Shown here one piece after another: positions 33,782-55,247 of a stretch of DNA of 64,000 nt; position 1 is the stretch's first letter, and every line of letters starts with the position of its first letter. Under the pieces are notes generated by a model that made no database searches, was not told the DNA's origin, and saw only the letters and a program-made list of their open reading frames with translations. Source of the DNA: Halanaerobiales bacterium (GTDB lineage: Bacteria > Bacillota > Halanaerobiia > Halanaerobiales > DTU029); assembly GCA_029981855.1 (NCBI GenBank), contig JARRCS010000004.1, forward strand, positions 26,074-90,073. The letters run 5' to 3'. The position numbers and the translations under genes were made by a program.

Positions 33782-34867
33782 TTATCCTTTTAAAATGATA
33801 TCTATTAACTCCATTGCATCCTTAACAACTATATCCATGTTAGCATACTTATATTTTCCCAGTCTCCCTATAAAATAGACATTGTCCAGCTTTTTTGCTT
33901 CTTCTGCATATAAATTATATAATTCCCTGTTTTCCTTTCTCGGAATGGGATAATAGGGTTCTCCCTCTCCACAGGGGTATTCCTTTACTATTGTGGTCCT
34001 GGCTGATTGTTGACCGGTTAAATGCTTAAATTCGGTTATTCTGGTGAAATCATAGTCATTGGGGTAATTTACAGTACCAACCTGTTGATAATACTCCCTG
34101 TCAAGGGTTTCAAATTTAAAGTTCAAGGATCTATAGGGTAATTTTCCGTATTTATAATCGAAATAGTAATCAATAGATCCGGTATAGATCATCTTACTAA
34201 ATTTTATTTCTCCTTCTATCTCTTTGTAGTCTGTATTTAGAAGGATACTTATATTTTTGTGATCAAGCATCTTTTGAATTAATTTTGTATATCCATTTGC
34301 CGGCATCCCTTGATACCTATCGGTAAAATATCTATCATCTCTGTTATATCTTACAGGTATTCTGGCTGTAACCTCTTTATCCAACTCTTCAGGATATAGA
34401 TCCCACTGCTTTTTGGTATATCCCTTAAAAATTAATTCATATAGCTCTTCACCCACTTTACTTACAACCATATCCCTGGCATTATGTACTAGAATGTCCC
34501 TTTTAACTTTCTCGTAAAATTTATTTATATTAAAATAATTATAATCTGTACCATAAAGCAGATTAATAGTATCAAGATTAATTGGAATAGGTACTAACTT
34601 TCCATTGACATAGGCCAGCACTCTATGCTGATAGTTTCTCCATTCGGTAAACCTTGATAGAAAATCCCAGACCTCCTTATAGTTAGTATGAAATATATGA
34701 GGACCATATTTATGGACCAGGATTCCATGGTCATTATAATAATCATAAGCATTTCCACCTATATGATTTCTCTTATCAACAATTAATACCCTGTTCCCCT
34801 TTTCAGCCAGTAGATTTGCACAGGTGCTGCCTGAAAACCCGGTCCCAACAATTAAATAATCAAACAT
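33782..34867 (-). CDS. glf: UDP-galactopyranose mutase
   Basis: 361 residues. FAD-binding motif FDYLIVGTGFSGSTCANLLA, and the Glf core GNAYDYYNDHGILVHKYGPH, HIFHTNYKEVWDFLSRFTEW, GKLVPIPINLDTINLLYG and GYTKKQWDLYPEELDKEVTA. It converts UDP-galactopyranose to UDP-galactofuranose. Its place in this cluster suggests that the surface or flagellar glycan carries galactofuranose, made by one of the nearby transferases. Confidence 0.93.
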   Translation of the reverse strand: MFDYLIVGTGFSGSTCANLLAEKGNRVLIVDKRNHIGGNAYDYYNDHGILVHKYGPHIFHTNYKEVWDFLSRFTEWRNYQHRVLAYVNGKLVPIPINLDTINLLYGTDYNYFNINKFYEKVKRDILVHNARDMVVSKVGEELYELIFKGYTKKQWDLYPEELDKEVTARIPVRYNRDDRYFTDRYQGMPANGYTKLIQKMLDHKNISILLNTDYKEIEGEIKFSKMIYTGSIDYYFDYKYGKLPYRSLNFKFETLDREYYQQVGTVNYPNDYDFTRITEFKHLTGQQSARTTIVKEYPCGEGEPYYPIPRKENRELYNLYAEEAKKLDNVYFIGRLGKYKYANMDIVVKDAMELIDIILKG

Positions 34868-34886
34868 CCTTTGCCCTCCTGTAAAG

Positions 34887-35375
34887 TTAATCTTCCTCCC
34901 TTAATGATTTCAGCTTAAATGGCATGAATAGAATAATAAAAATAGAAAAAATACCGGTGAGAATAAAGGAAAGAAAAGACATAGCAATATTCTGTAAACC
35001 CATCAGCATTATTTTTGTTTTACTTATCTCTTTAAAGTCGGAGACCACATTACAAATTACCCTTTTTTTAGTTTTAAGGGTCAGGGAATATAGTAAAACA
35101 TTTAAAAATCCGGCACCGGTAATATTGGTTACAGGAATAATAACCAGGTCAAATTCTTCATCCGCTAATTCCTTAACTTTATTTTTAAATTTGAAAGACC
35201 CTTTATAGGGATATATATGTATCTTATCAATCATCTTATATTTTTCTGCCAGTTTAACACCATGTTCATGAGTCAGTAAATTTATATTGTAATCTTTATA
35301 TTTTTCCTGAATGGTAATAATGTTCTTATCTAACTGTTGAAAACTTACCGAGCGAATAATAAGAAGTTTTTTCAC
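34887..35375 (-). CDS. GT9-like N-terminal fragment with C-terminal membrane helix
   Basis: 162 residues from a GTG at 35375 that follows GGGGAGG with a 7-base gap; a longer frame upstream lacks a ribosome site and would overlap the previous gene. Residues about 1-100 resemble the N-terminal half of heptosyltransferase-type (GT9) enzymes (KLLIIRSVSFQQLDKNIITI, EFDLVIIPVTNITGAGFLN). The C-terminal half of the enzyme is missing and replaced by a hydrophobic segment (SFLSFILTGIFSIFIILFM). It may be a membrane-anchored remnant or a new small protein. Function unknown. Confidence 0.5.
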   Translation of the reverse strand: MKKLLIIRSVSFQQLDKNIITIQEKYKDYNINLLTHEHGVKLAEKYKMIDKIHIYPYKGSFKFKNKVKELADEEFDLVIIPVTNITGAGFLNVLLYSLTLKTKKRVICNVVSDFKEISKTKIMLMGLQNIAMSFLSFILTGIFSIFIILFMPFKLKSLREED

Positions 35376-35388
35376 ATTCCAGCCTCCC

Positions 35389-36285
35389 CTATCTAAAAAA
35401 TGTAAAGGATACATTAAAGGGTATCCTTAGATTTTTAGCAATACTTCTGTCTACCGGCTTCCTTTTCCCCTTCAATTTCCCCATCTTAATAAAGGCGGAG
35501 AACATAGCCTTAATATATATCAAGGTCTTCTGCTCCATTGAGAAATAAAAGCAATTATAAATCAGCTGGATAGTAAATTTGATCGCCATATCCAAGGGAT
35601 AGTTTTTCCAGATAAGCCAGAAGGCGTTCCGGGTATAATAAAAAGGCGCCCTCCAGGAAGATCGATTTTCGGGAGAATACTTGTGATAGGATACTATATC
35701 TGGGAAAAACCGAATCTTGTATCCTGCATTTAAGATTCTAAAGGCTATATCCTGTTCGTTCCAGTATAAAAAGAATTCCTCAGGATAAAATCCCACCTTC
35801 TCTAACAGACCCCTTCTAACACCCGCACCGGCACCGTTAAAGGCCATAAGATAATCTTTTGACTCTGCTGCAGCATCCTCACTTTGATCTTCTTTATCAT
35901 TTTTTATATCATCATAATTGTAATAATTCCTTACATCAAAGGCTACAAGGCCAAGCTCTTCATCTTTACGAAACTTGTCCAACATCTTCTTAATAGCATC
36001 CCTTTCAGGAAAGGAGTCATCATCCAGTATTACTATATATTCACCCCTGGCGTTTTTAAAACCGATATTATAGGCCTCTATACCTATATTTTTAAACATC
36101 TTGATTAATTTAACCTCCGGAAACTCCTTTTCTATCATCTCCACTGTCCCGTCAGTAGAATAATTATCTACAACTATTACTTCCAGGTTATCATAATCTA
36201 TCTCCCTAATCCCATTCAGACTTTCCCGCAGATCCTCTTTTCTATTCCAGCAGATTGTTACTATACTTACCAGGGGATCATTCAT
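35389..36285 (-). CDS. GT2 glycosyltransferase (rhamnosyltransferase-like)
   Basis: 298 residues. GT-A fold with DPLVSIVTICWNRKEDLRES, the VVDNYSTDGTVEMIE block, and DDDSFPERDAI (metal-binding DxD-type motif). RNAFWLIWKNYPLDMAIKFT at the C-terminus is seen in dTDP-rhamnosyl transferase-like GT2 enzymes. The substrate is unknown. It begins 17 bases after the previous gene. Confidence 0.83.
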   Translation of the reverse strand: MNDPLVSIVTICWNRKEDLRESLNGIREIDYDNLEVIVVDNYSTDGTVEMIEKEFPEVKLIKMFKNIGIEAYNIGFKNARGEYIVILDDDSFPERDAIKKMLDKFRKDEELGLVAFDVRNYYNYDDIKNDKEDQSEDAAAESKDYLMAFNGAGAGVRRGLLEKVGFYPEEFFLYWNEQDIAFRILNAGYKIRFFPDIVSYHKYSPENRSSWRAPFYYTRNAFWLIWKNYPLDMAIKFTIQLIYNCFYFSMEQKTLIYIKAMFSAFIKMGKLKGKRKPVDRSIAKNLRIPFNVSFTFFR

Positions 36286-36302
36286 TCTTCACACCCTCTC
36301 TA

Positions 36303-37664
36303 TCATGAATCGAGCCTGCCCTTTAAAGTCAAAAGCTTGTTTAAAAACAAGGGATAGTAAATATTTTTCATCATCTTATAGACATTATCAAAACCTTTCA
36401 CATACTCCCTATCTTCATTAGAGCTTACCACATTAAAGAAGCGGTCTATATAAAAATCCATCCTATCTTCAATTTTGTTCTTAATATCAAAAATATGAAA
36501 ACAGACCTGACCTACCAGATCATATTCGTCATATTTGGCTTCTTTAAATTTAATCACCTTATATTCACCGAACTGCTCCCTTAATTCATTAATATCACTG
36601 TACTTCACGGCAATGGTAATATTTAAATCATTATTAAGCTTTATTAACTCATTCGTTACATCCCTCAAGATCTTTGTATCATTATAATCTATTAGAAGAA
36701 TATTTTTTTTATCGGTAATAATATTTTGCAATTTATTCTCTATAAGTTCTATATCAAAGATTCTACCTGCCGGTGCTTTTCCTCTTACATTATGACATGC
36801 ATCCTCAACAGCAGCAATTATGGTTTTGGCACTGCTGTATTTTCCCGTATAATTACATGAATAAACCGCCTGAAAGATCTCATCAAATATTTTTTCAGCA
36901 AATTCTTTTATTCTATCTTTGTCCAGATATTTAACAAAAAAATGAACCCTGTTTCTCCAGAAATAATAGGTGCCGAAGGTATTTGATTTTGCTTTAACAC
37001 CCATTTTGTGCCAGACGTTAGACCTTGTATAGGAAACCACCCTGAAACCCGCCAGTTTCATTCTGTAAGCCCATTCTATGTCATCCCAATAAATGAAATT
37101 GCCTTCATCTATTATCCCTGCCTTTTTAATTGCATCAGCCCTTACTAAAAGGGAACAAGCCGCCACGTAATCACACTCAACAATCTCGGGTAATTGGCCA
37201 TTATCTTTAAACCCTTTATAATTAGGGTTTATATAAAAATTATTCCAATCGATACTTGAGCCCAATTCCTGTATTTCTCCCGGTTTATCCATAGAATATA
37301 TCAATGAACCAGCTATTGCTACATCCTCATTCCTTTCCAGATAATTATAAAGCTCTTTTAAAGCATCTTCATCTAAAATAACATCATTATCCAGTAAATA
37401 GATGTATTTATAATCTTTTTTGAAGGCTTCTCTAATTCCTGTATTAAATCCTCCTGAACCACCTTTATTTTCACTATTTCTTATCAGGTTAACTTCACGT
37501 CCAAAAAAATCATTAATAGCTTCTACTGAACCATCTGTTGAGGCATTATCTACGACATATAGATCATAATTTTGAAAGGAGGATTTCTTTACTGACTCTA
37601 TACACTGTAAAACATAGTCTTTTTTATTGTAATTTAATATTATTATCGCAACAGCTTTATTCAT
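36303..37664 (-). CDS. GT2 glycosyltransferase with extra C-terminal domain
   Basis: 453 residues. The first 270 residues are a GT2 (IIILNYNKKDYVLQCIESVK, VVDNASTDGSVEAINDFFGR, LLDNDVILDEDALKELYNYL). The last ~150 residues form a separate domain (LIDYNDTKILRDVTNELIKL) that does not show the GxGxxG-like start of the module shared by the neighbours. Donor and acceptor unknown. Confidence 0.82.
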   Translation of the reverse strand: MNKAVAIIILNYNKKDYVLQCIESVKKSSFQNYDLYVVDNASTDGSVEAINDFFGREVNLIRNSENKGGSGGFNTGIREAFKKDYKYIYLLDNDVILDEDALKELYNYLERNEDVAIAGSLIYSMDKPGEIQELGSSIDWNNFYINPNYKGFKDNGQLPEIVECDYVAACSLLVRADAIKKAGIIDEGNFIYWDDIEWAYRMKLAGFRVVSYTRSNVWHKMGVKAKSNTFGTYYFWRNRVHFFVKYLDKDRIKEFAEKIFDEIFQAVYSCNYTGKYSSAKTIIAAVEDACHNVRGKAPAGRIFDIELIENKLQNIITDKKNILLIDYNDTKILRDVTNELIKLNNDLNITIAVKYSDINELREQFGEYKVIKFKEAKYDEYDLVGQVCFHIFDIKNKIEDRMDFYIDRFFNVVSSNEDREYVKGFDNVYKMMKNIYYPLFLNKLLTLKGRLDS

Positions 37665-37713
37665 GAAAGCCTCCTAACATCATTCATATCTCGATTTAAA
37701 AGATTCAACATAA

Positions 37714-38730
37714 TTAATAATAAACAACAAAATCGTCTAGATGATTATATCCAAGGTCTTTCAAGTATTCCGCTATTTCAAACTTACCTGGTTGGGATGC
37801 AACTAAAATTTTGGGCTTTTTTTCTGTTTCCTTAAGTAATTCTGGAGAAAATACTTTTTTTCCCTTAATTATTGTATCTTGTTTCTTTTTATCACTATCG
37901 ATAAACCCTTTAATATTGAGATTATTTATGTTTAGAGCATATAAAAGATTCTGCCCCATACTTCCAGCACCCCAGACATAGACTTCATTATTTTCTTCGA
38001 ACAAATTGTTAATCTCTTCTTTTTTGATTCTATATAAACTCTTTCTAAAAAATAGATCATTGTTTCTAGCTGTAATTGAAGTACTAGATACCCTCATTTT
38101 CACCAGAACCTTATCTATATTGGCCATCTTATATCCCATTTTATTTAATTTATAAAATAAATTATAATCCGTTCCCATTGGGAAATCTTCATAACCAACC
38201 TTTTTTATAACCTTACTTTTACCCATAATAGTTGTATGGGTTAAAGAACAATACCAGTATAATCTTTCCCTCATTGCCTGCCAATGAACAACACTATTTA
38301 TTTCCTTTTCAATTATTGATTTGAAGGTTCGATATCTTTGGCTTTTTTTTACTTTATTATTATGTGGAAAAAACTCTATAAAACTTCCCACAATATCTAT
38401 ATCTGGATTGTTTTCTAAAAATTTTTTTTGTTCCATAAATCTAATAGGTTCAAATATATCATCTGAATCTGCTTTAGCAATATATTTGCCATTAACCTTC
38501 GATAAACCAAAATCTAAAGCAGGCCCAACTCCCTGGTTTTGCTCAAAATCAAATAATCTAATTCTACTATCATTATAACTTTCTATAATTTCCCGTGTTC
38601 TATCAGTAGACCCGTCATTGACGATTATAAACTCAAAATCATCATAAGTTTGATTCAATATACTCTCTATTGATTCACCAATAAATTCTTCCCCATTGTA
38701 AACAGACATTAAAACACTTATTTCAGGCAC
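37714..38730 (-). CDS. GT2 glycosyltransferase with C-terminal Rossmann-like module
   Basis: 338 residues. GT2 domain: EISVLMSVYNGEEFIGESIE, IVNDGSTDRTREIIESYND and AKADSDDIFEPIRF (metal motif). The last ~95 residues begin EVYVWGAGSMGQNLLYALNI, then GFIDSDKKKQ, FSPELLKE and ILVASQPGKFEIAEYLKDLG; this is the module repeated in nearby genes. Linked by 48 bases to the next transferase. Substrate unknown. Confidence 0.82.
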   Translation of the reverse strand: MPEISVLMSVYNGEEFIGESIESILNQTYDDFEFIIVNDGSTDRTREIIESYNDSRIRLFDFEQNQGVGPALDFGLSKVNGKYIAKADSDDIFEPIRFMEQKKFLENNPDIDIVGSFIEFFPHNNKVKKSQRYRTFKSIIEKEINSVVHWQAMRERLYWYCSLTHTTIMGKSKVIKKVGYEDFPMGTDYNLFYKLNKMGYKMANIDKVLVKMRVSSTSITARNNDLFFRKSLYRIKKEEINNLFEENNEVYVWGAGSMGQNLLYALNINNLNIKGFIDSDKKKQDTIIKGKKVFSPELLKETEKKPKILVASQPGKFEIAEYLKDLGYNHLDDFVVYY

Positions 38731-38777
38731 CTAGACTTCCCTCCTTCCATAAATTATATAAATATTTTATAAAGCTA

Positions 38778-40040
38778 TTATTGTAAAGTAGTCTGGAAAA
38801 CTTTAAATTGATTAATCCCCATTTCTGTCAGTTGTTTTGATATTTCTCCGTAATATGAACTTGTAATAATAACTTCATTTTTATCCCTTTTATAATTTTC
38901 TTTTAAATAATCTGGTGACTTTATCTCTACATTATTAATTTTTTTACCCCATTTTCTTTTATCATTATCACAGAAATAGGCAATACAATATTTCCTTTTC
39001 AATATCTCAAAGGCAACCTTCCCTAATGTTGAGGCTCCAAATAAAATTAAATCAACCTTTTTCTCATTTAATGTATCTTCAACATGCTTTTTACTGGTTT
39101 TCTCTAAACCCTTAATCATCTTATCAATCTTTTTGATCTGTTTTTCTAAGGAATAATGCCTTTTTACAAAATCCCGGTATTCTGTTGAATTATATTCAGC
39201 TGATTTTATCATCTCTAGTGCTTCATCTATCGTATTAAAAAGATACTTCTCCGACCAGATATCTTTTGCAGTAGGAAAATTATGAATTACTGGTTTGATT
39301 CCCTTTGCCATTCCCTCTGCAATATTATAGCCGAAACTTTCGTAAACACTTGTGGAGATAATATAATCTTTATTTTCCAACCATTTATTAATATCTTTCT
39401 GCCAACCTTCAAAGTAAACATGATCCTTTAAATTCATTTCGTCGATTAAATGGTTCCAATATAATTCGATTAGATTTTCATAAAACTTCCCGGCTACAAA
39501 TAATTTATATCTTGGATCAAATTCAACTAATTTTTTTATAATTTGTAATATCATCATTGGATTCTTAATAAGTCTCACTTTGGCAATATAAGCAAGGTTA
39601 TATCCCTTTTCTCTGGGTTGAAAACTAAATAAATCCAAATTGACAGGATTACTTATTGTTTCAATAGACACCCGCTGTTCAATGTCCGGAAGAAATTCTT
39701 TCAACAACTTTTTAACATGGTCCAGGACAACCACCAGTTTATCTATATTCTCCCATTTGACGATAAAGGGGTACTCGGTAAAAATTTCATACCTGTGCAA
39801 TCTACATATAATTTTCTTCCGCTTCGCCAGTTCCAGATCACTTGCATAAGCTATAATATCATCACACCATTCAAACCAACATATATCTGCCCATTCCATC
39901 CCTTCATTTATTTGAAAAAGGTTGGTAACCTCAATTTTTCTAACTTTATAATTTAATGACAATCCCTTAATAATATCATTTAAGAAATCATCCATACCTT
40001 TTTTAACGAAAAATGCTACTTTTATGTTATTTTTAACCAT
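38778..40040 (-). CDS. GT4-like glycosyltransferase with C-terminal Rossmann-like module
   Basis: 420 residues. GT-B fold: VVLDHVKKLLKEFLPDIEQR, YNLAYIAKVRLIKNPMMILQ, DYIISTSVYESFGYNIAEGM (the GT4 EX7E-like region) and AKGIKPVIHNF. Its last ~95 residues carry the shared module (LILFGASTLGKVAFEILKRK, YFCDNDKRKWGKKINNVEIK, VIITSSYYGEISKQLTEMGI). Donor unknown. Confidence 0.78.
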   Translation of the reverse strand: MVKNNIKVAFFVKKGMDDFLNDIIKGLSLNYKVRKIEVTNLFQINEGMEWADICWFEWCDDIIAYASDLELAKRKKIICRLHRYEIFTEYPFIVKWENIDKLVVVLDHVKKLLKEFLPDIEQRVSIETISNPVNLDLFSFQPREKGYNLAYIAKVRLIKNPMMILQIIKKLVEFDPRYKLFVAGKFYENLIELYWNHLIDEMNLKDHVYFEGWQKDINKWLENKDYIISTSVYESFGYNIAEGMAKGIKPVIHNFPTAKDIWSEKYLFNTIDEALEMIKSAEYNSTEYRDFVKRHYSLEKQIKKIDKMIKGLEKTSKKHVEDTLNEKKVDLILFGASTLGKVAFEILKRKYCIAYFCDNDKRKWGKKINNVEIKSPDYLKENYKRDKNEVIITSSYYGEISKQLTEMGINQFKVFQTTLQ

Positions 40041-40060
40041 AGTTTTTACTCCCTTTTATG

Positions 40061-41152
40061 TTAAATAAAGAATAATAAATCGTCCTTATTATAAAGTTTT
40101 ATGATTTTTACCTCTTTTTTTAACAGATTATTTATTATCTTAAAGATCTCATCCTGATATAAATAACTTGAAATAATTATCCTATCCAACTCCAAATCAT
40201 TTATCTGTTCGGGGCTATAAACGTATCTATTTAAAAATTTTTCTCCCCAGTAATCTTCATTGGAATCAAAAAAGAATATATTGAAATCTATATCCCCAAA
40301 AATATCTTCATATAATCCTAACATACCTGTAGTATGTCCACCGGTACCGTAAATGCCAATATTTTTACCGTAAGCTCCCTCAAAGGCTTTTACCAAAAGA
40401 GGCTTTAATTTATCACACCAATAATCATAGCAATTTTCCTTTAAATATTTATTTGGCAAGATATCAATGCTTCCCCCATATTTATTTATCACCCTATGTT
40501 TTTCGGAAGTAAATTTATCTAACTGAGAAACACTTTTAGATTGATTATGCTCTCTAAATTTTGCCAGGACTTTATCTAAATATTTAATCTCACTTATCTT
40601 TAACAATTTTATCCAGAGATCATAATCCATTACATAATTTAAACTTTCATCTAAATAGCCAACTTTTTTTACTGCCTTCATAGAATAGAATGAACCCGGC
40701 TGAGCAATTGATGATCTTTTATGTAAAAGTACATCTAAATCAATATCTGGGACTTTATATATTTTATTCTGGTTTCCTTCTTCATCTATAAATAATAAAT
40801 TACCATAAACAATACCCAATTTATTGTTCTTAATAAATTCATCAACTACGGTTTCTACACAATCCCGCATTAATATATCATCTGAATTAATCCAGCCAAC
40901 AATTTCCCCCTTTGCCATCTTAAAACCCTTGTTAATCGCGTCTGACTGACCATTATCCTTCTCAGATATATAGGTTAGCCTATTTTTATATCTTTCCAGT
41001 ATCTTTAATGTATTATCTTTTGAACCACCATCAACTACTATATATTCAATATTATCATAGGTCTGATCTAAAACTGAGTTAACTGTTTCTTTTATATATT
41101 GCCCTTGATTATATGAGGGTGTAATTATACTTACTAAAGGTTTTTCATCCAT
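40061..41152 (-). CDS. GT2 glycosyltransferase with C-terminal Rossmann-like module
   Basis: 363 residues. GT2 domain: VSIITPSYNQGQYIKETVNS, IVVDGGSKDNTLKILERYK and GWINSDDILMRDCVETVVDE. The C-terminal ~100 residues match the shared module with a HTTG variant of the loop (IGIYGTGGHTTGMLGLYEDI), FFFDSNEDYWGEKFLNRYVY, and RIIISSYLYQDEIFKIINNL. This copy is the most diverged of the five. Substrate unknown. Confidence 0.82.
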   Translation of the reverse strand: MDEKPLVSIITPSYNQGQYIKETVNSVLDQTYDNIEYIVVDGGSKDNTLKILERYKNRLTYISEKDNGQSDAINKGFKMAKGEIVGWINSDDILMRDCVETVVDEFIKNNKLGIVYGNLLFIDEEGNQNKIYKVPDIDLDVLLHKRSSIAQPGSFYSMKAVKKVGYLDESLNYVMDYDLWIKLLKISEIKYLDKVLAKFREHNQSKSVSQLDKFTSEKHRVINKYGGSIDILPNKYLKENCYDYWCDKLKPLLVKAFEGAYGKNIGIYGTGGHTTGMLGLYEDIFGDIDFNIFFFDSNEDYWGEKFLNRYVYSPEQINDLELDRIIISSYLYQDEIFKIINNLLKKEVKIIKLYNKDDLLFFI

Positions 41153-41181
41153 TTACTTCCCTCCTTATAAATACTCTTATC

Positions 41182-43548
41182 CTACTCATAAATTGTCAGG
41201 ACTTTCCTTTCATCAATTCCCATACCTAAAAGTTGTTCTTTTATCGCATCTTTACCGTAAATCGAAGCGATAATTATCTTATCAACTTTGTTACATAATT
41301 CCAATTCGGGTTTTAAAACCATTTTGCCGAAAAGGCTCCTATTCCATTTAAATTTATCATTATCAAAGAAATATTCTACAGCTACATTTTCAGAAGCTTC
41401 CTGAATAAGGTTAAAAACTAACTTCCCTAATTCACCTGAACCAAATATGGCAACCCTTTTATTATTATCTTCAAGAATAAAATCAATAAATTGATCAGCA
41501 AAGATAAAACTATTCTTTTCATTAAAGGAATACATCCTTTTCGATCTATCCTCTTTTTTATATGCCTGATCTAAGTCCTTCTGGCTAACATCATTTTCTT
41601 TTATAAATCTATATCCATAATTTAATAAATCTTGATTTTTTGAAAAACCTAATGTTGAAACAATATTTTCAAAGGTGTATTTAAAATGAAAATTTCCAGT
41701 TAAATTGAATGCAATATCTGAATCGAAATCCCAGTCGCTAATTAAGACTCCCTCTTTTTTTAACAACCCATTTAACCTGGCAGCTAACTGAACAGGATCT
41801 TTAACATATTCAAAGATATTATTACTGACCAAGACATCGTAATAATTATCTTTTAAAGTATTAACAAAGCTTATATTTTGATAACCCTTAATGTTTTCAA
41901 ATATATAATCAAAAATATTAGATTTATATATATCAATATTAGAAGAAGGAGTTCTCTTAGCAATCTCCTTTGCTACAGTTCCAATACTATCATTATAGAC
42001 TAAAATATTTAGATTTTTTTTATCTTTAAAATAGTCCGCTATCAGATTGATATGGTACATTGATGTTGGCTCTGTTTCAATAAATAAACTATAAAATAAC
42101 CAGATTGGGTGAGATTGAAAAATATCTAAGTCTTCTTCTGAAATATTTTCCGTTTCTAATCCTATATCATACCAGACTTGATTCATAATTTGCCTTACAT
42201 CTTTAATATTTGGAGCTTTATTAATATCAAAATACCCCACATATTTTTTTAAGTTATTCCATTTAAGCAACCCGTAAACCTCTGACCACTTTTTAACTTC
42301 TATATCTCTGGTAAGTAATTCTTCATATAAATTTAAATATTTTTTTCCTACGATCCTAAAAGAATAATTATTTATAACTTTCTCCCTTGTCTCTTTACCT
42401 AAAACCTTTAATCTTCTTTCATCTTTTAAAATCCATCCAATACCTTCAGCTAAATCTTCGGCAGATTTATATTCAGCCAGATAACCATTTTTCTTATGTT
42501 CTAGCATATCGGGCATTCCACCAATATTAAAAGCGACAACAGGCGTACCACATGCCATTGATTCCATAACGGTGTTAGGTAAGTTATCTTCTAATGAAGG
42601 AGCAATAAATACATCAGCGGCACTATAGCATAAGGCCAGAGTATAATCATCTTTTAAAGTTCCCATAAAATTTACCTTATAAGGAAAACTTTCCATCTCT
42701 TCAGAACTGGAAGCACCAAAAACCAATAACTCTAAATTATTATTAAAATCTTTACGCCTAAAACTTAACTTTTCTAAAGCTTCTTTAAGATAAGTAAACC
42801 CTTTTCTTTTATCCTTTGTTGCCTTTACTGCTCCAAATAAAACTAAATGCTTATCCATTGGAAGATTTAAAATCATGCGAGCAACCTTTTTATCAATTGG
42901 TTTAAATATTCCCGTATCAAGAGTATTAGGTATAACTTTAATTTCTGAGTCTGAAAAGAGAGAACTTTCCCTGGCAGATTCTGCAAGCCATTTGCTTGGT
43001 GTTACTATAGTTAAGTCTAATTTATTAAAAATTTCATGTTTTTTTAACCAGACTTTTCTCGTTAAATCCTCCTCTTGATCAGATTTTAGAATTGGACATC
43101 GCCCACACTTTTCCTGATATCTATCACAAAAATTACTGTAATGACAGCCACCGGTAAAAGGCCACATATCATGAAGAGTCCAGACAATGGGTTTATTTAA
43201 ACGTTCAAGCTTATTTAAACTCTTTAATGAAAGAAAATCTCCATTTATCCAGTGCAGATTTATAATTTCAGCATCCTTTATAAGACTATCATTAGAAATA
43301 TCTACTCCTTCTCTACCTGTAGAAAAAGGAACAGGATACCTTTCAAGATAAAAATTTAAGGATGGGATACTATTATCATAAATTGATTTTGAAGTATTAG
43401 GAAAACTAACGGTTAAATCATCCCCCTTTTTAGTCCTGACAAACATTCTGGAATCAATATCTAATCTATTTAAAGCCTGATTTAATCTATAGGCGGCCCT
43501 GGCTGCTCCACCCTGTATATCCGAGCTGCTAATGTGTACTATTTTCAA
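41182..43548 (-). CDS. Three-domain protein: GT4 glycosyltransferase + methyltransferase-like + Rossmann-like module
   Basis: About 788 residues. Residues 1-420 are a GT4 (KIVHISSSDIQGGAARAAYR, WTLHDMWPFTGGCHYSNFCD, VFIAPSLEDNLPNTVMESMA), with a Cys-rich GGCHYSNFCDRYQEKCGRC loop known in WcaC-like transferases. Residues about 490-640 resemble a class I SAM methyltransferase (YYDVLVSNNIFEYVKDP, LKKEGVLISDWDF), though the GxGxG motif is unclear. The last ~95 are the shared module. A TTG at 43548 with GAGGG 9 bases before it was chosen over the TTG at 43557. Probably modifies the sugar it transfers; inference. Confidence 0.75.
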   Translation of the reverse strand: MKIVHISSSDIQGGAARAAYRLNQALNRLDIDSRMFVRTKKGDDLTVSFPNTSKSIYDNSIPSLNFYLERYPVPFSTGREGVDISNDSLIKDAEIINLHWINGDFLSLKSLNKLERLNKPIVWTLHDMWPFTGGCHYSNFCDRYQEKCGRCPILKSDQEEDLTRKVWLKKHEIFNKLDLTIVTPSKWLAESARESSLFSDSEIKVIPNTLDTGIFKPIDKKVARMILNLPMDKHLVLFGAVKATKDKRKGFTYLKEALEKLSFRRKDFNNNLELLVFGASSSEEMESFPYKVNFMGTLKDDYTLALCYSAADVFIAPSLEDNLPNTVMESMACGTPVVAFNIGGMPDMLEHKKNGYLAEYKSAEDLAEGIGWILKDERRLKVLGKETREKVINNYSFRIVGKKYLNLYEELLTRDIEVKKWSEVYGLLKWNNLKKYVGYFDINKAPNIKDVRQIMNQVWYDIGLETENISEEDLDIFQSHPIWLFYSLFIETEPTSMYHINLIADYFKDKKNLNILVYNDSIGTVAKEIAKRTPSSNIDIYKSNIFDYIFENIKGYQNISFVNTLKDNYYDVLVSNNIFEYVKDPVQLAARLNGLLKKEGVLISDWDFDSDIAFNLTGNFHFKYTFENIVSTLGFSKNQDLLNYGYRFIKENDVSQKDLDQAYKKEDRSKRMYSFNEKNSFIFADQFIDFILEDNNKRVAIFGSGELGKLVFNLIQEASENVAVEYFFDNDKFKWNRSLFGKMVLKPELELCNKVDKIIIASIYGKDAIKEQLLGMGIDERKVLTIYE

Positions 43549-44023
43549 ATTTATCAACCCTCGTATAATATGATTAGTGACATTAATTAAAAGTCACTTT
43601 TGAAACCTAAATTAATAATTTTTTAATCCTATACATTAAAAACAGTAGTAGTAGTTGTGGTTATGTGGGCAACTTGGTCTTTAGTTGTCCAAGCGGTGTG
43701 GATAATGTGCGTCAATTTGATTTTTAATTGTCCACATTATCCATATAAGCGTCATATCCACAACTCATAAGAGCTGCTACAAAATTTGTCCTCCAGGTTG
43801 TTCCTATGATACAATTTAACCATAAGTATCTAGGGACTTGCTTTTCACCCCAGTTGCATGCTCTTTAGCATGACTTATTTCCATCTTTTGGAATGTTGGC
43901 TAGGCGGGTATCTTATTACCTAATTTGCTTATTTTAGACTAAAATTTTTTTGATTTCCCTCTTGACATCTTACCGTATTTCTTAACATAAAATTATACAC
44001 ATTATCACCTTCATAATAATAAT
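43549..44023. other. 475-base AT-rich non-coding gap with many hairpins
   Basis: No gene of convincing coding character on either strand. It holds a large interrupted palindrome (43653-43765) and several exact small hairpins: GATAC/GTATC (43808-43830), CTAGGG/CCCCAG with one wobble (43830-43853), CATGC/GCATG (43857-43872) and TTCCA/TGGAA (43879-43893). This stretch is more GC-rich than the genes beside it. It could be the relic of a mobile element end or a structured RNA; I cannot name it. Confidence 0.5.
43653..43765. repeat. Large interrupted palindrome with DnaA-box-like sites
   Basis: Outer arms AGTTGTGGTTATG and CATATCCACAACT (43653-43665 with 43753-43765, 12 of 13 paired) enclose an 11-bp arm TGGATAATGTG/CACATTATCCA (43699-43709 with 43733-43743) and a 5-bp CAATT/AATTG stem. 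A further CTTGG/CCAAG pair sits between. The strands carry one perfect DnaA-box consensus TTATCCACA (minus strand) and near matches ATATCCACA and TTGTCCACA. Function not known. Confidence 0.6.
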
Positions 44024-46714
44024 TTAACAAACAAATTCTTTGAATCTTTTATCAGAAACTTTAGCTAATTTTTCTAACTTACTTTTTATTTTTAAATGTT
44101 TTTTAATAAAATCACTTTTATTTAAGTAAATATTATCAAACATTTCACTGATCTTTTTAAAACTTACTTCTTTAATATTAATACAGTTTTTAGTATTATC
44201 TATTATCTCATTAAAACCATAAATTTTGCCAATATTAGAATCATAATCTATTGCTAATGTTGGGATGCCAAGTGTATTACCAAAAACTACAGAATGAAAC
44301 CTCATCCCGACCAACATTTCAGCTTCTTGAAATATTTTTATTGATTCTTCTACTGAATATTCTCCTCCATAAAATTTTATCAATTCGTTATCAGGAAGTT
44401 TTTTCTTTAACTCAAAAAAGTAATTCCGATCATCATTTCCCAAAAAATAAGTATGCATGGGAAAAAATCTAACTTCTTTTTTATATTCATTAATTATCTT
44501 TTCTACTAATTTTATAATTGAATCTATAAAATTATCTTTTATATTGATATATTCATTCTTATTTTTACAATAGTTCAACGGCCAATCCCTTATTGAAAAT
44601 AAGATATAGGAATTATTATTTTTTCTTGGCTTCACGTAATCAAGTAAATAATTAACTGCTGGATCAACATATGAACTATAATTTATATTTTCTATAATTT
44701 CGGGATAGCTTTTCGCTGAATTATCATCTCTTAACATAATAAGATCTGAAAGTTGTAATATAAATTTAACTACATTTTTTAACCTGTTCGATTTTAATGG
44801 CCCTAAACCACAGTTATATATTACTGTTTTTTTTCTAAATAATTTAGCTAAAATAAATGTAAATAAAATGTTATTTAGATTTTCTATATCCATTAAAGGC
44901 CCGCCACCCATTATAATAACATCAGACTCTTTAATTTTTTTTATATTTTCTTTAATACCTTTACCGAAAATTTCATTATTGTTATTAGTTTTTATCATTT
45001 TCATTGTTTCTTCTGTATAATATGGCACAATTGAAGATATATTCAATTTTATATTAGAATTAATCTTAATTAAATTCCTTATTATGCCTCCTAAAATTGC
45101 TTTGTCACCTAATGTTTCTGTTCCATACCAACCAGTTATATAGGCTACCCCTAATTGATTTTTATTTTTAGATTTCACGTGCTTTAAAATTGGAACTAAT
45201 AAAAATGATAAATAATATAATAAACGATAACTTTTTTTGATATATTTTGCTTTTAACTCTCTAAATTTATATTTTAAAATAGTCTTTATATTATGGATAC
45301 CATTATAATCGTGTATACAATAATCACAGTGATTCTTTAAAATATCTTTTCGTTTTTTCACATTAAGAAAATATAAATTTTTTAAGTCTTCTTTTAGAGC
45401 ATTTCCTAATAACGGACTTTTAGTAAAACAATAATATAAATTTCCTTCAGGATCTAAGGAAATACCCCTATTTTTCCAATCACAACCTGCTCCTCTTGGT
45501 TTATTCTCAATTAATTGATCAATTAAAGATTTATAAAATATTTTTTGGTCAATTTTGCTTTCATAATTATTAATTAATCCCTCTAAAAACTTAGCAATTT
45601 TTATTTTCTCTTCTCTATTAAACTCAAAATTTGATCTTAAATCAGCATTATATAATCTATCTATTTGTGTAGCTATTCTAAATTTAATATATTTCCCCCG
45701 ATCTTTTGCATAATTTAATACATTATATAAATCATGTATATTATCTTTAACTATAGTAGTACTTAGACTGTAATCAAATCCCCTATTATCAAGAGCATCT
45801 AATAAAGCATTTAAATTATCAAAAGAAAATCTATTACCTCGAATTTTATTATGAACTTCACCAATACCATCAAGGGAAAACATGATTGAAAAATCTATAT
45901 TATTTTTTCGGCATAATTCTTCTATTTTTGGTAATACTTCCAAAATCTTATTCTTTAAAAGGCCATTAGATATAATAGAAATCCACTTTAATTTTGGAGT
46001 GCTATTAATAATAAATTTAATAACATCTAAAATATCTTTACGTAAAAAAGGTTCTCCCCCACTTAGGCCAACCCCAACTACTTCTTTAAAAAGTTCATTA
46101 GAAAAAACTTCCCCTATTTCCTCGGGAGTCATCATATGCTCTTCTCTATTTTCTCTCTTCCAAACATTACACATTTTACATCTACAATTGCAGAGACTAG
46201 TAATTGGAAAATTTACTACTTTTGGATATTCTTTTATTCCAAATATAATACTTAAATCATTTTTTATTGACTTAAAAAGATATTTTAGAAATTTTTTTAT
46301 TTTATCCAAATTTGTATTACCATTAGTGTTTATCGCCGGAATAATTTTTGTTTTAGTTACTCCAATATTTATCAGTTGTTTTTCTATTTCAACTTTCCAA
46401 GTAGAAGCAATAACTACCTTGTCAACTTTATTAATTTTTTTTAATTGTGGTTTAATAATTTTTTTCCCATAAACCTCCTTTCCCCATTTTATTTGACTAT
46501 TATCCATAAACCATTTGATTCTAATATTACTACCTGTTAAGTTATTAAAATCTTGAATAAAACTAAAAACAATTTTTCCTGCATTTCCAGCACCAAAAAT
46601 AATAATCTCATCATTATTATTATTTCTAACATATTTTATAAATTTCTTGGTTATTATCTCATATCTTGATGAATTTATTAATTTATATAAATATAATGAT
46701 GAACTTCCTTTCAT
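44024..46714 (-). CDS. Triple fusion: Rossmann-like module + radical SAM/SPASM + polysaccharide pyruvyltransferase
   Basis: 896 residues. Residues about 35-130 are the shared module (EIIIFGAGNAGKIVFSFIQD, WFMDNSQIKWGKEVYGKK). Residues about 165-470 are a radical SAM enzyme: the CX3CX2C cluster is Cys175/179/182 (CNCRCKMC), GGEP is at 219-222, and SPASM-type cysteines are 411, 429, 463 and 466. Residues about 521-896 match the polysaccharide pyruvyltransferase family (GTETLGDKAILGGIIRNLI, VIIMGGGPLMDIENLN, LVGMRFHSVVFGNTLGIPTL). The gene is strikingly AT-rich and flanked by two palindrome-bearing gaps. Substrate unknown; probably a late sugar modification. Confidence 0.8.
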   Translation of the reverse strand: MKGSSSLYLYKLINSSRYEIITKKFIKYVRNNNNDEIIIFGAGNAGKIVFSFIQDFNNLTGSNIRIKWFMDNSQIKWGKEVYGKKIIKPQLKKINKVDKVVIASTWKVEIEKQLINIGVTKTKIIPAINTNGNTNLDKIKKFLKYLFKSIKNDLSIIFGIKEYPKVVNFPITSLCNCRCKMCNVWKRENREEHMMTPEEIGEVFSNELFKEVVGVGLSGGEPFLRKDILDVIKFIINSTPKLKWISIISNGLLKNKILEVLPKIEELCRKNNIDFSIMFSLDGIGEVHNKIRGNRFSFDNLNALLDALDNRGFDYSLSTTIVKDNIHDLYNVLNYAKDRGKYIKFRIATQIDRLYNADLRSNFEFNREEKIKIAKFLEGLINNYESKIDQKIFYKSLIDQLIENKPRGAGCDWKNRGISLDPEGNLYYCFTKSPLLGNALKEDLKNLYFLNVKKRKDILKNHCDYCIHDYNGIHNIKTILKYKFRELKAKYIKKSYRLLYYLSFLLVPILKHVKSKNKNQLGVAYITGWYGTETLGDKAILGGIIRNLIKINSNIKLNISSIVPYYTEETMKMIKTNNNNEIFGKGIKENIKKIKESDVIIMGGGPLMDIENLNNILFTFILAKLFRKKTVIYNCGLGPLKSNRLKNVVKFILQLSDLIMLRDDNSAKSYPEIIENINYSSYVDPAVNYLLDYVKPRKNNNSYILFSIRDWPLNYCKNKNEYINIKDNFIDSIIKLVEKIINEYKKEVRFFPMHTYFLGNDDRNYFFELKKKLPDNELIKFYGGEYSVEESIKIFQEAEMLVGMRFHSVVFGNTLGIPTLAIDYDSNIGKIYGFNEIIDNTKNCINIKEVSFKKISEMFDNIYLNKSDFIKKHLKIKSKLEKLAKVSDKRFKEFVC

Positions 46715-51342: not shown

Positions 51343-52815
51343 CTAAGATAACTCCATTTTAAGGAAATTCCGTAACTTTTCCACGGGAAGATTATTATTC
51401 TGAGACTTATATTCTCTGATAACGCTTGTAATAATCTCCTTTCTTCCAAAGGAAAACTTACAGTAGGTACTAATCACTTTCTTTAGAGTCATTATTCTCG
51501 TTCCCTTTATCTTTGCTCCTCCCTCTGTGGCATCAATAAAGGTAATACCTTTATTCTCAGCGATGAATCTCTCAAATTTTCTCAGGTAAAGATAATAACT
51601 GGTAGAAGTATAGACTTTATCCTCAACAATTCCCTCAATCTCCCTTAACTGAGATATATCTTTTCTGGCATTACCATAAAAGGTATCCGAGGCATGGGTT
51701 ATCCCTTCCTTACTATAAGCGAAATCCTGACCGACAAAAATTATTGGATTTCCTCCAAGTTGGAGGGCAAAATCAAGAGCTGTCAGGGCAACGGTTCCTC
51801 CGGTTAGGATTCTACCCTTATCAACTTTTTCAGCCAGCCTATCCATAATTAAATCATCTTTCGCCAGCCCAATTATTTTAGGCCCCTTATAATTCTCAAC
51901 AACCTTCCAGTTGGTACCAAGAGTGTGTAATAAAGGAATATCGAGATCTTTATATTTACTGAAAACCCTGTCATAAACTATTTTTATTGGTTCAATTGTA
52001 ACTACAAAGTCTGGTCTAATCTCCCTCTTGAGCAGAGGGGTTAAAGCGGTATCAACAGAAATTATAACCCCTCTGTCTTTAATCTCCTCTAAAACATTAA
52101 TATTTTTATCCAGTGACGGCCCTGCTGAAATTATAAAAACAGGAACTTCTGAAAAAAGCCCTGTAAAGCTTTTAACTCCGATAGTCTTATTAACTAAGCT
52201 TATATTTTTAATTAGATTATTTTTAATTGCTCTACCCAATCTCTCACTGTTATACGAACTCACCCTTATTTCTTCTAGAATATCTTTAAAAAACAAGAAG
52301 CCATCTGGAATAATTTTTATTGACTGGGAATGAACAATAAGTTGGCTCACCGATGATGATAGATTATCAAGTAATAGTTGAATTTCTCTGGTGAAGGAGG
52401 CTGGCTCAGCAGCAAGAACAATCTTTACCCTCTCATCTCTCAAAACTCCTGTTAGATCCCGGTTCTCCAAGGCAAGTTTGAAAATATCTAAATTTGGAAC
52501 AATAATATTTAGAGCCTGTTCTCTCTTTAATCTCGATAATATCTCTTCCACATGATACCCCAGTCCAAAGCCTATCAAAACTATTGATTTTTTACCTGTT
52601 AGATCCTGGCTATCGGCAAACCTTATAGCCTCCCTCTGAGGATTATATAGACTATGCAGGAAAATATCCTCCCTGTCTTTTACATTAACCTTTACAGTAA
52701 ACTCTTCATTTTTTGTTTTTACTAACTTTAAATCTCTAAAAGTATTAAAATCAGCCAGTAGTTTTCTATCTTTTTCATCTAAACAACTTATATTTTTCTC
52801 ATATAAAGAAACCAT
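51343..52815 (-). CDS. Maf-type motility-associated glycosyltransferase (second copy)
   Basis: About 490 residues. DUF115/MptE-like core: VPVFIISAGPSLDKNINVLE, REIRPDFVVTIEPIKIVYDR, IIFVGQDFAYSKEGITHASD and FIDATEGGAKIKGTRIMTLK. These are the motifs of Maf enzymes that transfer nonulosonic acid to Ser/Thr of flagellin. About 120 residues shorter than the other copy. The ATG at 52815 has AGGTGG upstream; the GTG at 52824 is inside that site. Confidence 0.87.
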   Translation of the reverse strand: MVSLYEKNISCLDEKDRKLLADFNTFRDLKLVKTKNEEFTVKVNVKDREDIFLHSLYNPQREAIRFADSQDLTGKKSIVLIGFGLGYHVEEILSRLKREQALNIIVPNLDIFKLALENRDLTGVLRDERVKIVLAAEPASFTREIQLLLDNLSSSVSQLIVHSQSIKIIPDGFLFFKDILEEIRVSSYNSERLGRAIKNNLIKNISLVNKTIGVKSFTGLFSEVPVFIISAGPSLDKNINVLEEIKDRGVIISVDTALTPLLKREIRPDFVVTIEPIKIVYDRVFSKYKDLDIPLLHTLGTNWKVVENYKGPKIIGLAKDDLIMDRLAEKVDKGRILTGGTVALTALDFALQLGGNPIIFVGQDFAYSKEGITHASDTFYGNARKDISQLREIEGIVEDKVYTSTSYYLYLRKFERFIAENKGITFIDATEGGAKIKGTRIMTLKKVISTYCKFSFGRKEIITSVIREYKSQNNNLPVEKLRNFLKMELS

Positions 52816-52824
52816 CTGGTCCAC

Positions 52825-53400
52825 CTAATTCTCCGGCTCACTCTGTTCCTTTACTTCCTTCACCAACTCCAGATAGTCTTCCAGCACAGGCACCAGTTCA
52901 TATTCAAGAATATCATTTAATAATACTATATCCTGCCTTTCCATTGCATCTAGCAGCTCTTCCATGGTTCCCTGCCAATTATTAATGAATTCCTTAGTAC
53001 TATCTACTTCCCCCATACTTATCAGACTGCCTAGTAAGGTATTTAACCATTCCAGGCCCTCCAGACCCTGGCTAAGCAGTTTAAAGGATTCAGCTTCCCT
53101 ACCCTGGTTAAATTTATTGATAATCTCCTCTACACCTGAAATAAACTGAAGGATATAGTTTTCAGCTTCAACCAGTGTATCCCTGGTAAGATCCTTGACA
53201 TTCTTGCTAATAATCTTGAGTTCCTCAATGGGTTTAATCTTTTCCAACTCTTCTTCAGTAAAGCCTGTAATATTCTCCCCATCGGCGATCACCTCAGTTA
53301 CAACAAACCCTGCTACCTCAATTGCATCAATTACATCACCGATGTTTTCATAATTAGCCTTCTCCAGTTCAATATCGGCACCATAGATCGTCACTCTCAT
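52825..53400 (-). CDS. Hypothetical helical protein between two Maf genes
   Basis: 191 residues. The first ~60 residues look like a small alpha-beta domain (MRVTIYGADIELEKANYENI, VAGFVVTEVIADGENITGF); the rest is a run of long acidic helices (EFINNWQGTMEELLDAMERQ) with no cysteine and no membrane segment. The shape of the second part recalls export chaperones such as FliS/FliT, but there is no motif match. It overlaps the first Maf by one base and abuts the second, so it is fully coupled to both. An adaptor for glycosylation is a plausible guess. Confidence 0.6.
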   Translation of the reverse strand: MRVTIYGADIELEKANYENIGDVIDAIEVAGFVVTEVIADGENITGFTEEELEKIKPIEELKIISKNVKDLTRDTLVEAENYILQFISGVEEIINKFNQGREAESFKLLSQGLEGLEWLNTLLGSLISMGEVDSTKEFINNWQGTMEELLDAMERQDIVLLNDILEYELVPVLEDYLELVKEVKEQSEPEN

Positions 53401-55247
53401 TATTTTTCCTCCTTAGTTAATATGCAGTAGTTTTCTTTCATAATCTCCAGGGTTCTATTACTACCGGTAATTAATCTATTATAAAAATCTACAGTCTGGT
53501 TTAACACCTGCATATCTCCCTTATAAAAATCCCTTTTAAAATAGACATCAAAGATTTCTGATTCAAAAAAGATGATATTATTTTTTAATGAATTAATCCG
53601 CTCATTAATTTCTCCCAGTTGAGAAGAAAGATTATCAACCATCTCCTCTTCAAAAGACGGAGCGTCAATTAACCGGTCAATCAACCTCAGCCCTTTTTCT
53701 GCTAATTCTTTAACCTCTGCTATACCACCAATTATTTTTTTTAGCTCTATAAGCAATTCTTCACCCCACTGGGGAGTAAAGGATAATATTTCTGTCAGTA
53801 ATCTATCTTTTGCACCTATCTCTTTCTGACAATATTTATCTACCACCTTTTCCAGGGTCATCAATTCAGTACCCTCAATCCGGGCCCCACCCTCTGTCGC
53901 ATCAATAAACTTGATCTCGGTGCCCATATTTTTCATCACTCTGATACTTCTATTAAACCATTGTAAATAGTTATAAAAATCTCCCCTGGTCCAGACCGGG
54001 TCACCATTAATATCCTTTATTTTAAAGTATTTCTTGCCCGAAACTTTCATATCCTCCTCTACCGTTCTCCTGAAGACATTTCCTTCAGCATGAGTATAAT
54101 TACCGGTTAAAGCCAGGTCCTGCCCGACAAAAACGATGGGGTCAGCCTGTAAGTAATAGGCGAAAACAAAGGCTAGATGTGCCACTGAACCTCCAGTAGG
54201 CATCCTTCCTTTGTAATCCATATATTGTTCAAGCCAACTCAAAATGTAATCTTCAGTTACATCCATGAAAGTAGGAGCCATAATTTTGGGCCCTGGCCAG
54301 TCGTTAAAAATTTTGGGCTGGACCCTGGGACAGGCAACCAGAATTGTTTCTTTTAATCTTTCATAATTTACCCCCTCTAAATACTTAAAAATCTCTTTTT
54401 TTCCATCAAGGACCGTAAGGATATCGGGGATAATATCCCTGGATAATAATGTTTTTAAGGAAGCATCAATAGCAATTATCAAGCCCTTTCCTTTTGCTTT
54501 TTTTAAATGATTAACATTCTTTTGTAGGGAAGGACCGGCAGCAACCAGAAATGCAGGCTGACCCTGGGCAAAACCCTTAAATCTAACATAACCGGGAGTA
54601 TTGATAAGCAGAGTTAAATTCTTTAAAAAATTTAGATTCCAGGTCTTACCATCTTTAATAGTAGTCACTTTATTACCGATAATTTTATTCAACAATTCAT
54701 TCATAACTTCATGGAATAAAAGAGAGAATTTTCCAGAATATTTAATAGCTGATGGTAGTATAAGGAAATCAATTTCTTCAAAAAAAGAATTAATATTATC
54801 ATCAATAAAATCAAATAATTCCTGGTCCTCAATTTTATTCTTAATTAAAAAATAAAAATTGGTAGAATTAAAAACTTGACTGAAATCGTGAAGTTTCAAA
54901 GCTTCTTTAACTAAGACAGGCTTATTTTCTATTACAAAGACTTTAATTTTTTTATCTTTTAACACATCAAATAATCCCAAAAGGTGATAACCAAGGCCAA
55001 AACCAAATACTACTATTGAATTCACTCTGTCCAGATCGATCTGTTCTACCAACCGCTGTGCCTCCCGCTCAGGATTATATTTACTGTGTACTAAAAGGAA
55101 AGTTCCATCAACATTCATAATAGCAGTTCTGGAACCATTTTGGGCCTCAATCATTTCTATTTTATAACCATCACTCTCAGCTCTTTTTATTTCCTTGACT
55201 ATTTCAGGATGTTCTCTTTCCATGATTTCTAGATTTTTCTGTAACAT
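53400..55247 (-). CDS. Maf-type motility-associated glycosyltransferase (first copy)
   Basis: 615 residues. An N-terminal domain (about 1-200) is followed by the MptE-like catalytic core (PAFLVAAGPSLQKNVNHLKK, SRDIIPDILTVLDGKKEIFK, PIVFVGQDLALTGNYTHAEG, FIDATEGGARIEGTELMTLE) and a C-terminal helical extension of about 120 residues. Maf enzymes put pseudaminic or legionaminic acid on flagellin before export. It lies just after fliD, the usual spot, and the pse genes follow, which supports a pseudaminic-type donor. Confidence 0.9.
   Translation of the reverse strand: MLQKNLEIMEREHPEIVKEIKRAESDGYKIEMIEAQNGSRTAIMNVDGTFLLVHSKYNPEREAQRLVEQIDLDRVNSIVVFGFGLGYHLLGLFDVLKDKKIKVFVIENKPVLVKEALKLHDFSQVFNSTNFYFLIKNKIEDQELFDFIDDNINSFFEEIDFLILPSAIKYSGKFSLLFHEVMNELLNKIIGNKVTTIKDGKTWNLNFLKNLTLLINTPGYVRFKGFAQGQPAFLVAAGPSLQKNVNHLKKAKGKGLIIAIDASLKTLLSRDIIPDILTVLDGKKEIFKYLEGVNYERLKETILVACPRVQPKIFNDWPGPKIMAPTFMDVTEDYILSWLEQYMDYKGRMPTGGSVAHLAFVFAYYLQADPIVFVGQDLALTGNYTHAEGNVFRRTVEEDMKVSGKKYFKIKDINGDPVWTRGDFYNYLQWFNRSIRVMKNMGTEIKFIDATEGGARIEGTELMTLEKVVDKYCQKEIGAKDRLLTEILSFTPQWGEELLIELKKIIGGIAEVKELAEKGLRLIDRLIDAPSFEEEMVDNLSSQLGEINERINSLKNNIIFFESEIFDVYFKRDFYKGDMQVLNQTVDFYNRLITGSNRTLEIMKENYCILTKEEK

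Follow-up and report, generated by a model that had tools for sequence, protein, structure and literature searches.

A Rossmann-like module shared by five enzymes of a flagellin-glycosylation island and by other glycan loci of its phylum

In a Halanaerobiales bacterium (assembly GCA_029981855.1, contig JARRCS010000004.1), five consecutive genes on the minus strand of the 64,000-nucleotide stretch analyzed here (the window) each carry one copy of a module of ~95 residues, fused to enzymes of glycan synthesis. Homology of the five copies, proposed in a preliminary description of this DNA, is confirmed and lies far above chance, with leave-one-out profiles giving expect values (E) from 3e-24 to 2e-7. 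On the basis of sequence and a structural model, the module is predicted to be a Rossmann-like domain, small (~95 aa) and with five strands, that belongs to the PglD_N / CoA_binding_3 / C2185-like_N / Rex superfamily. The reading we favor, tentatively and at slightly less than even confidence, is that it serves as a promiscuous nucleotide-binding, probably oligomerizing accessory or regulatory domain, like the uridine-nucleotide-responsive domain of WbaP.

Results

The five genes (37714, 38778, 40061, 41182 and 44024) and their coordinates had been described correctly, as had the position of the module, which is N-terminal in gene 44024-46714 and C-terminal in the other four:

46319..46672, minus strand: module A, N-terminal in gene 44024-46714 (profile match and alignment)
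41185..41520, minus strand: module B, C-terminal in gene 41182-43557, source of the structural model (profile match, alignment and model)
40079..40426, minus strand: module C, C-terminal in gene 40061-41152, the most divergent of the five (leave-one-out E 2.4e-7)
38781..39116, minus strand: module D, C-terminal in gene 38778-40040 (profile match and alignment)
37717..38046, minus strand: module E, C-terminal in gene 37714-38730 (profile match and alignment)

The copies align end to end. When a profile built from four modules was searched against the 343 six-frame stretches of the window, it recovered the fifth in every case (E 2.9e-23 for A, 2.6e-24 for B, 2.4e-7 for C, 1.2e-15 for D and 4.2e-13 for E) and matched nothing else there at E < 10, which rules out five unrelated Rossmann folds. 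A single-sequence search of the bacterium's own genome returned the five window modules and nothing else, and the five-copy profile added only weak Rex- or oxidoreductase-like matches. The glycine-type loops reported for the five copies (FGAGNAGK, FGSGELGK, YGTGGHTTG, FGASTLGK and WGAGSMGQ) are all present verbatim, the GxGxxG-type loop being intact in A, B and E and altered in C and D, and FxD[N/S] is found in 5/5. The other reported motifs stood in part: a tryptophan turn is present in four of five modules, its literal KWG form being limited to 44024 and 38778 (KWN in 41182, YWG in 40061), and all five have both the P segment and the strand that ends in S, with the final L..GI-type helix clear in four.

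Across 162 distinct modules, the loop glycines are conserved at 98%, 79% and 60% and the aspartate of strand 2 at 85%. The modules thus carry the hallmarks of the nucleotide-binding Rossmann-like superfamily, namely a GxGxxG-type loop and an acidic end of strand 2, and the conserved positions are those of the putative nucleotide site. The corresponding Asp of a PglD-type enzyme contacts the ribose, and the Asp that follows it contacts the uracil (PMC8040287). This second residue is mostly Asp in the CapD and PglD rows of our alignment, whereas in most modules it is Asn, Ser or Lys, and in 5/5 window modules it is Asn or Ser.

The AlphaFold2 model of module B (predicted local distance difference test, pLDDT, 90.3) consists of five strands with flanking helices, forming a small Rossmann-like domain. 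Its fold matches include Rex 3wg9 (Z 13.1), 3nkl (Z 13.0), the N-terminal domain of 2g6t (Z 12.7; root-mean-square deviation 2.1 over 90 residues), WbaP 8t53 (Z 11.4), the PglD-type 4eaa (Z 10.3), the C-methyltransferase KijD1 (5t67, Z 9.4) and succinyl-CoA synthetase alpha. A 75-sequence profile matched 3nkl (1.2e-12), the sugar C-methyltransferase 4rv9 (2.4e-8), Rex, 2g6t, VioB and WbaP, and 3nkl is the best PDB match both by sequence and by Foldseek. None of the five modules scored at or above the cut-off of a Pfam model, and the Pfam and NCBIfam matches were all below threshold (PglD_N, C2185-like_N, Methyltransf_14, CoA_binding and Rex). When Rex, PglD and CapD domains of the same genomes, labeled by open reading frame (ORF) length and position, were placed in a tree with the modules, each of these three formed one group and the modules stood apart, with 2 label changes against 28.5 in shuffles, the alignment being short and the deep forks not resolved. 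The fit was better for a tree that unites Rex, PglD and CapD on the side opposite the modules than for the unconstrained one. The highest-ranking fold and profile matches include the NAD-binding domain of Rex, and modules and Rex alike most often have Asn following the Asp, as might be expected of a redox or nicotinamide adenine dinucleotide (NAD(H)) sensor like Rex. We regard such a function as very unlikely, since the module is short (five strands), nearer the size of PglD_N than of a full NAD-binding fold, and groups apart from Rex.

Local duplication of one module was rejected as the origin of the set, because a single clade of the five window modules is rejected by the approximately unbiased test (p-AU 0.0035). 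The modules are therefore mostly not the product of duplication in place. A and B are the sole window pair that group together, along with two rows from other genomes; the neighbors of E are modules on similar glycosyltransferase family 2 (GT2) enzymes of other genomes; and the nearest relative of D (51%) is an N-terminal module on a methyltransferase of genome G149. These groupings indicate that modules pass from one enzyme or terminus to another; the set appears to have been assembled largely by separate acquisition or inheritance. Modules of the same locus resemble one another slightly more than chance predicts (59 changes versus a shuffled mean of 66.3 and minimum of 60). In a genome of another family (G228, L093:161-5000), the order mutase, short GT9-like, GT2, GT2 and GT2 with module seems to match that of window 33782-38730, which suggests transfer of a glycan block.

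The catalytic parts, reported as unrelated, do fall into several families, not into five different ones: two are GT2, two contain GT4 and one is a radical S-adenosylmethionine (SAM)-pyruvyltransferase.

45710..46207, minus strand: radical SAM domain, gene 44024-46714 (Pfam PF04055, E 1.3e-13, residues 170-335)
44237..45112, minus strand: polysaccharide pyruvyl transferase domain, gene 44024-46714 (Pfam PF04230, E 1.7e-32, residues 535-826)
42313..43557, minus strand: GT4-type glycosyltransferase part, gene 41182-43557 (Pfam PF13692/PF00534/PF13439)
41740..41859, minus strand: methyltransferase-like part, a partial match, gene 41182-43557 (Pfam PF08241, E 6e-5, residues 567-606)
40757..41131, minus strand: GT2 domain, gene 40061-41152 (Pfam PF00535, E 2.1e-34)
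39243..39620, minus strand: GT4 domain, gene 38778-40040 (Pfam PF00534, E 1.1e-13)
38302..38718, minus strand: GT2 domain, gene 37714-38730 (Pfam PF00535, E 9.1e-35)

Related modules, sampled mainly within the window's own phylum, occur in other families of that phylum and in two Lachnospiraceae records. A consensus search for related loci returned two Lachnospiraceae loci and no others, and consensus tblastn, a weak query, found no match in phage and plasmid collections. The module is carried by at least 15 enzyme classes and at either terminus (C-terminal in 82 and N-terminal in 67 of 168 module ORFs); counts of relatives are slightly inflated, as about 7 of the 115 scanned have a Methyltransf_14 match as well and include true C-methyltransferases. 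Among the partners are GT2, GT4, GT11, GT56, GT-D, WbsX and MUCI70-type enzymes, together with cytidine diphosphate (CDP)-glycerol phosphotransferase, CDP-alcohol transferase, LicD, TupA ATP-grasp, FrhB, TIM barrel, cytidylyltransferase, MptE-like, several methyltransferase families and radical SAM. In one MptE-like (Maf-type) case, L112:5521-6831, the module is fused N-terminally.

This range of partners bears on whether each module binds the nucleotide sugar that the attached catalytic domain uses, on the model of PglD-type acetyltransferases and sugar C-methyltransferases. The C-terminal domains of the latter match the module in both sequence (4rv9) and fold (5t67), and PglD-type N-domains form a platform for uridine diphosphate (UDP) (PMC8040287). 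The module is nevertheless also found on FkbM-type methyltransferases, radical SAM enzymes, TupA ATP-grasp proteins, CDP-alcohol transferases and standalone proteins. In addition, the GT2 and GT4 folds include a donor site of their own, and we consider such substrate binding quite unlikely. Some partners use no nucleotide sugar, so the module cannot in general serve to bind the donor of its partner, and with donors that differ from one partner to the next or are absent, the spread is better explained by docking or by a ligand that the whole pathway shares. Nucleotide-sugar binding as such is made plausible by the analogy with domains of the PglD type and of WbaP.

The preliminary description knew of no other such set, but the five-gene set is not unique: multi-module loci recur in the phylum, with at least 11 modules in one. 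The module is present on 11/16 ORFs of L110, 10/17 of L111 and 9/15 of L113, there are six modules in L088 and 7 + 6 in L090/L091, and in L057 it sits on five consecutive genes of five families (FkbM methyltransferase, GT-D, GT2, GT4 and glycerophosphotransferase). With ORF lengths typical of Rex, PglD and CapD excluded by hand, 13 of 299 genomes have at least two modules at E 1e-8, where ~4 would be expected, and four have at least five, where ~0.0003 would be expected, under a Poisson spread that takes no account of relatedness or of how glycan-gene content varies among genomes. A mere abundance of glycan genes was rejected as an explanation, as genomes G078 and G085 have 28-31 GT2 genes and no module at E 1e-8. 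In or near multi-module loci (L056, L057/L111, L093, L113, L114, L115 and L117), modules also occur on their own: there are eight, of which seven measure ~155-161 aa and one is a 98-aa fragment, and all have an N-terminal hydrophobic helix, called by hydropathy alone and weaker in the two L117 copies:

L111:15056-15532, L113:2744-3220, L114:4556-5032, L093:10341-10826, L056:3108-3575: standalone modules of ~155-161 aa with a hydrophobic N-terminal helix and a similar linker

A further standalone module of 161 aa (L045:4726-5211), 46% identical to module A, lies beside transposase-like fragments in a pseudaminate locus and may be the remnant of a longer gene.

These loci raise the main rival to a nucleotide-binding regulator, namely a docking or scaffold role in which modules bind each other or a common partner and so hold the enzymes of a locus together, in some loci with an anchored standalone module recruiting them to the membrane. 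The over-representation of multi-module loci, the presence of the module on about half of the ORFs in some Lachnospiraceae-type loci, the standalone copies, whose predicted anchor fits membrane recruitment, and the unrelated donors of the partner enzymes would all agree with docking. We nonetheless judge it possible but on the unlikely side: the window locus has no membrane-anchored standalone module, the whole genome holds just five modules, the Poisson expectation is subject to the simplifications noted above, and docking alone would not need a conserved glycine loop and Asp.

The window is a flagellar region, and the five module genes are 5 of the 18 ORFs of a flagellin-glycosylation island at ~29.0-51.2 kb. 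The island is flanked on one side by fliF/fliG (24.2-26.8 kb) and on the other, at 51.3-62.3 kb, by two Maf-type genes, fliD, flagellin, a second flagellin-type gene, flgK and flgN; the Maf-type (MptE-like) pair is adjacent (51343-55247) and borders the island near fliD and flagellin. PseG is encoded within the island, along with genes whose translations we take to represent further pseudaminate-pathway enzymes, guanosine diphosphate (GDP)-mannose dehydratase and epimerase types, and a UDP-galactopyranose mutase type. Amid the five-gene run is a 466-bp gap with no listed ORF (43558-44023), and the 64-kb window, this gap included, has no Rfam match at the gathering threshold.

Discussion

Our preferred interpretation, a nucleotide-responsive accessory domain, supposes that the five enzymes share one promiscuous domain, a copy in each, that would bind a nucleotide or nucleotide conjugate common to glycan synthesis, such as the nucleotide released by transferases. 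The module would probably oligomerize, and ligand binding together with oligomerization may regulate or co-assemble the enzymes of a glycan locus, here the flagellin-glycosylation island. The accessory domain of WbaP is stabilized by uridine mono-, di- and triphosphate (UMP/UDP/UTP) and destabilized by UDP-galactose (UDP-Gal), supplies most of the dimer contact and has been proposed to regulate the enzyme (PMC10942596). Several points weigh against our interpretation. An appreciable fraction of copies have an incomplete glycine loop, the middle position being Ser in D and the third Gly missing in C. At the position of the uracil-contacting Asp of PglD-type enzymes, the 162 modules mostly have Asn (42%), Ser (20%) or Lys (14%), and because of this replacement the ligand may not be uridine, or may vary between copies. 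Finally, the full-length model of gene 37714 (pLDDT 59.8) is too poor to place the module relative to the catalytic site. The earlier idea of a shared binding domain that ties together one assembly line survives in its first half, as the modules are one family, cluster apart from Rex, PglD and CapD and have nucleotide-binding features; a role specific to one line is not supported, given the many loci and enzyme classes and the lack of a local clade.

Docking and sensing might also be combined. We speculate, as an unlikely scheme, that many glycan loci of the phylum are built around such a module, unrelated enzymes each having gained a nucleotide-responsive domain and some loci an anchored standalone copy, giving a ligand-controlled assembly complex. 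How cytoplasmic enzymes within one glycan pathway are coordinated is largely unknown in general, and one domain across the transferases, methyltransferases, radical SAM and phosphotransferase-type enzymes of a locus offers a direct handle on the question. A single ligand screen and a single interaction test would cover hundreds of unstudied enzymes, many of them Lachnospiraceae-type, and the module may serve as an annotation marker for glycan loci missed by current family libraries. It seems to be a shared element of control or assembly in the glycan machinery of bacteria that has so far been overlooked.

Comparison with known systems

We found no description of this domain or of such multi-module loci in the open papers searched. 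Five known domains come closest to the module. C2185-like_N (PF22674), the N-terminal domain of 2g6t from Clostridium acetobutylicum, presumably the protein behind the Pfam model, shares its fold and, like the module, is small and joined to a further domain. One relative, L108:16900-18267, scores above the Pfam cut-off (34.6 versus 27 bits), whereas the window modules stay below the 27-bit gathering score (best reported, 20.6 bits) and the model finds no match in the bacterium's own genome at E 0.001; it spans just a slice of module diversity. PglD_N (PF17836), the UDP-sugar platform of PglD/VioB-type acetyltransferases, is alike in size, fold, glycine loop and strand-2 Asp and matches four of the five window modules weakly (best full-length window protein, 18.9 bits versus a gathering score of 23.4), but the modules lack an acetyltransferase domain, do not conserve the second Asp and, in 4/5, lack the loop GGH. 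Methyltransf_14 (PF08484), the C-terminal domain of sugar C-methyltransferases, is similar in profile and fold, differs in its partner enzymes and reaches its cut-off on no window module. The NAD-binding domain of Rex shares the fold and a D-[N]-x-x-x-K-x-G turn; the modules differ in having glycan enzymes as partners in place of a winged-helix DNA-binding domain and in clustering separately. CoA_binding_3 (PF13727), found in WbaP, CapD and PglF and represented by 3nkl, has no match at the Pfam gathering score among window proteins or modules, which mostly have D[N/S] in place of its DD motif, lack the four-helix membrane bundle, are fused to many other enzymes and form a separate cluster, the CapD rows being one group that contains no modules. 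It is, like the module, an accessory domain in glycan synthesis, and by analogy the accessory domain of WbaP is the closest functional precedent.

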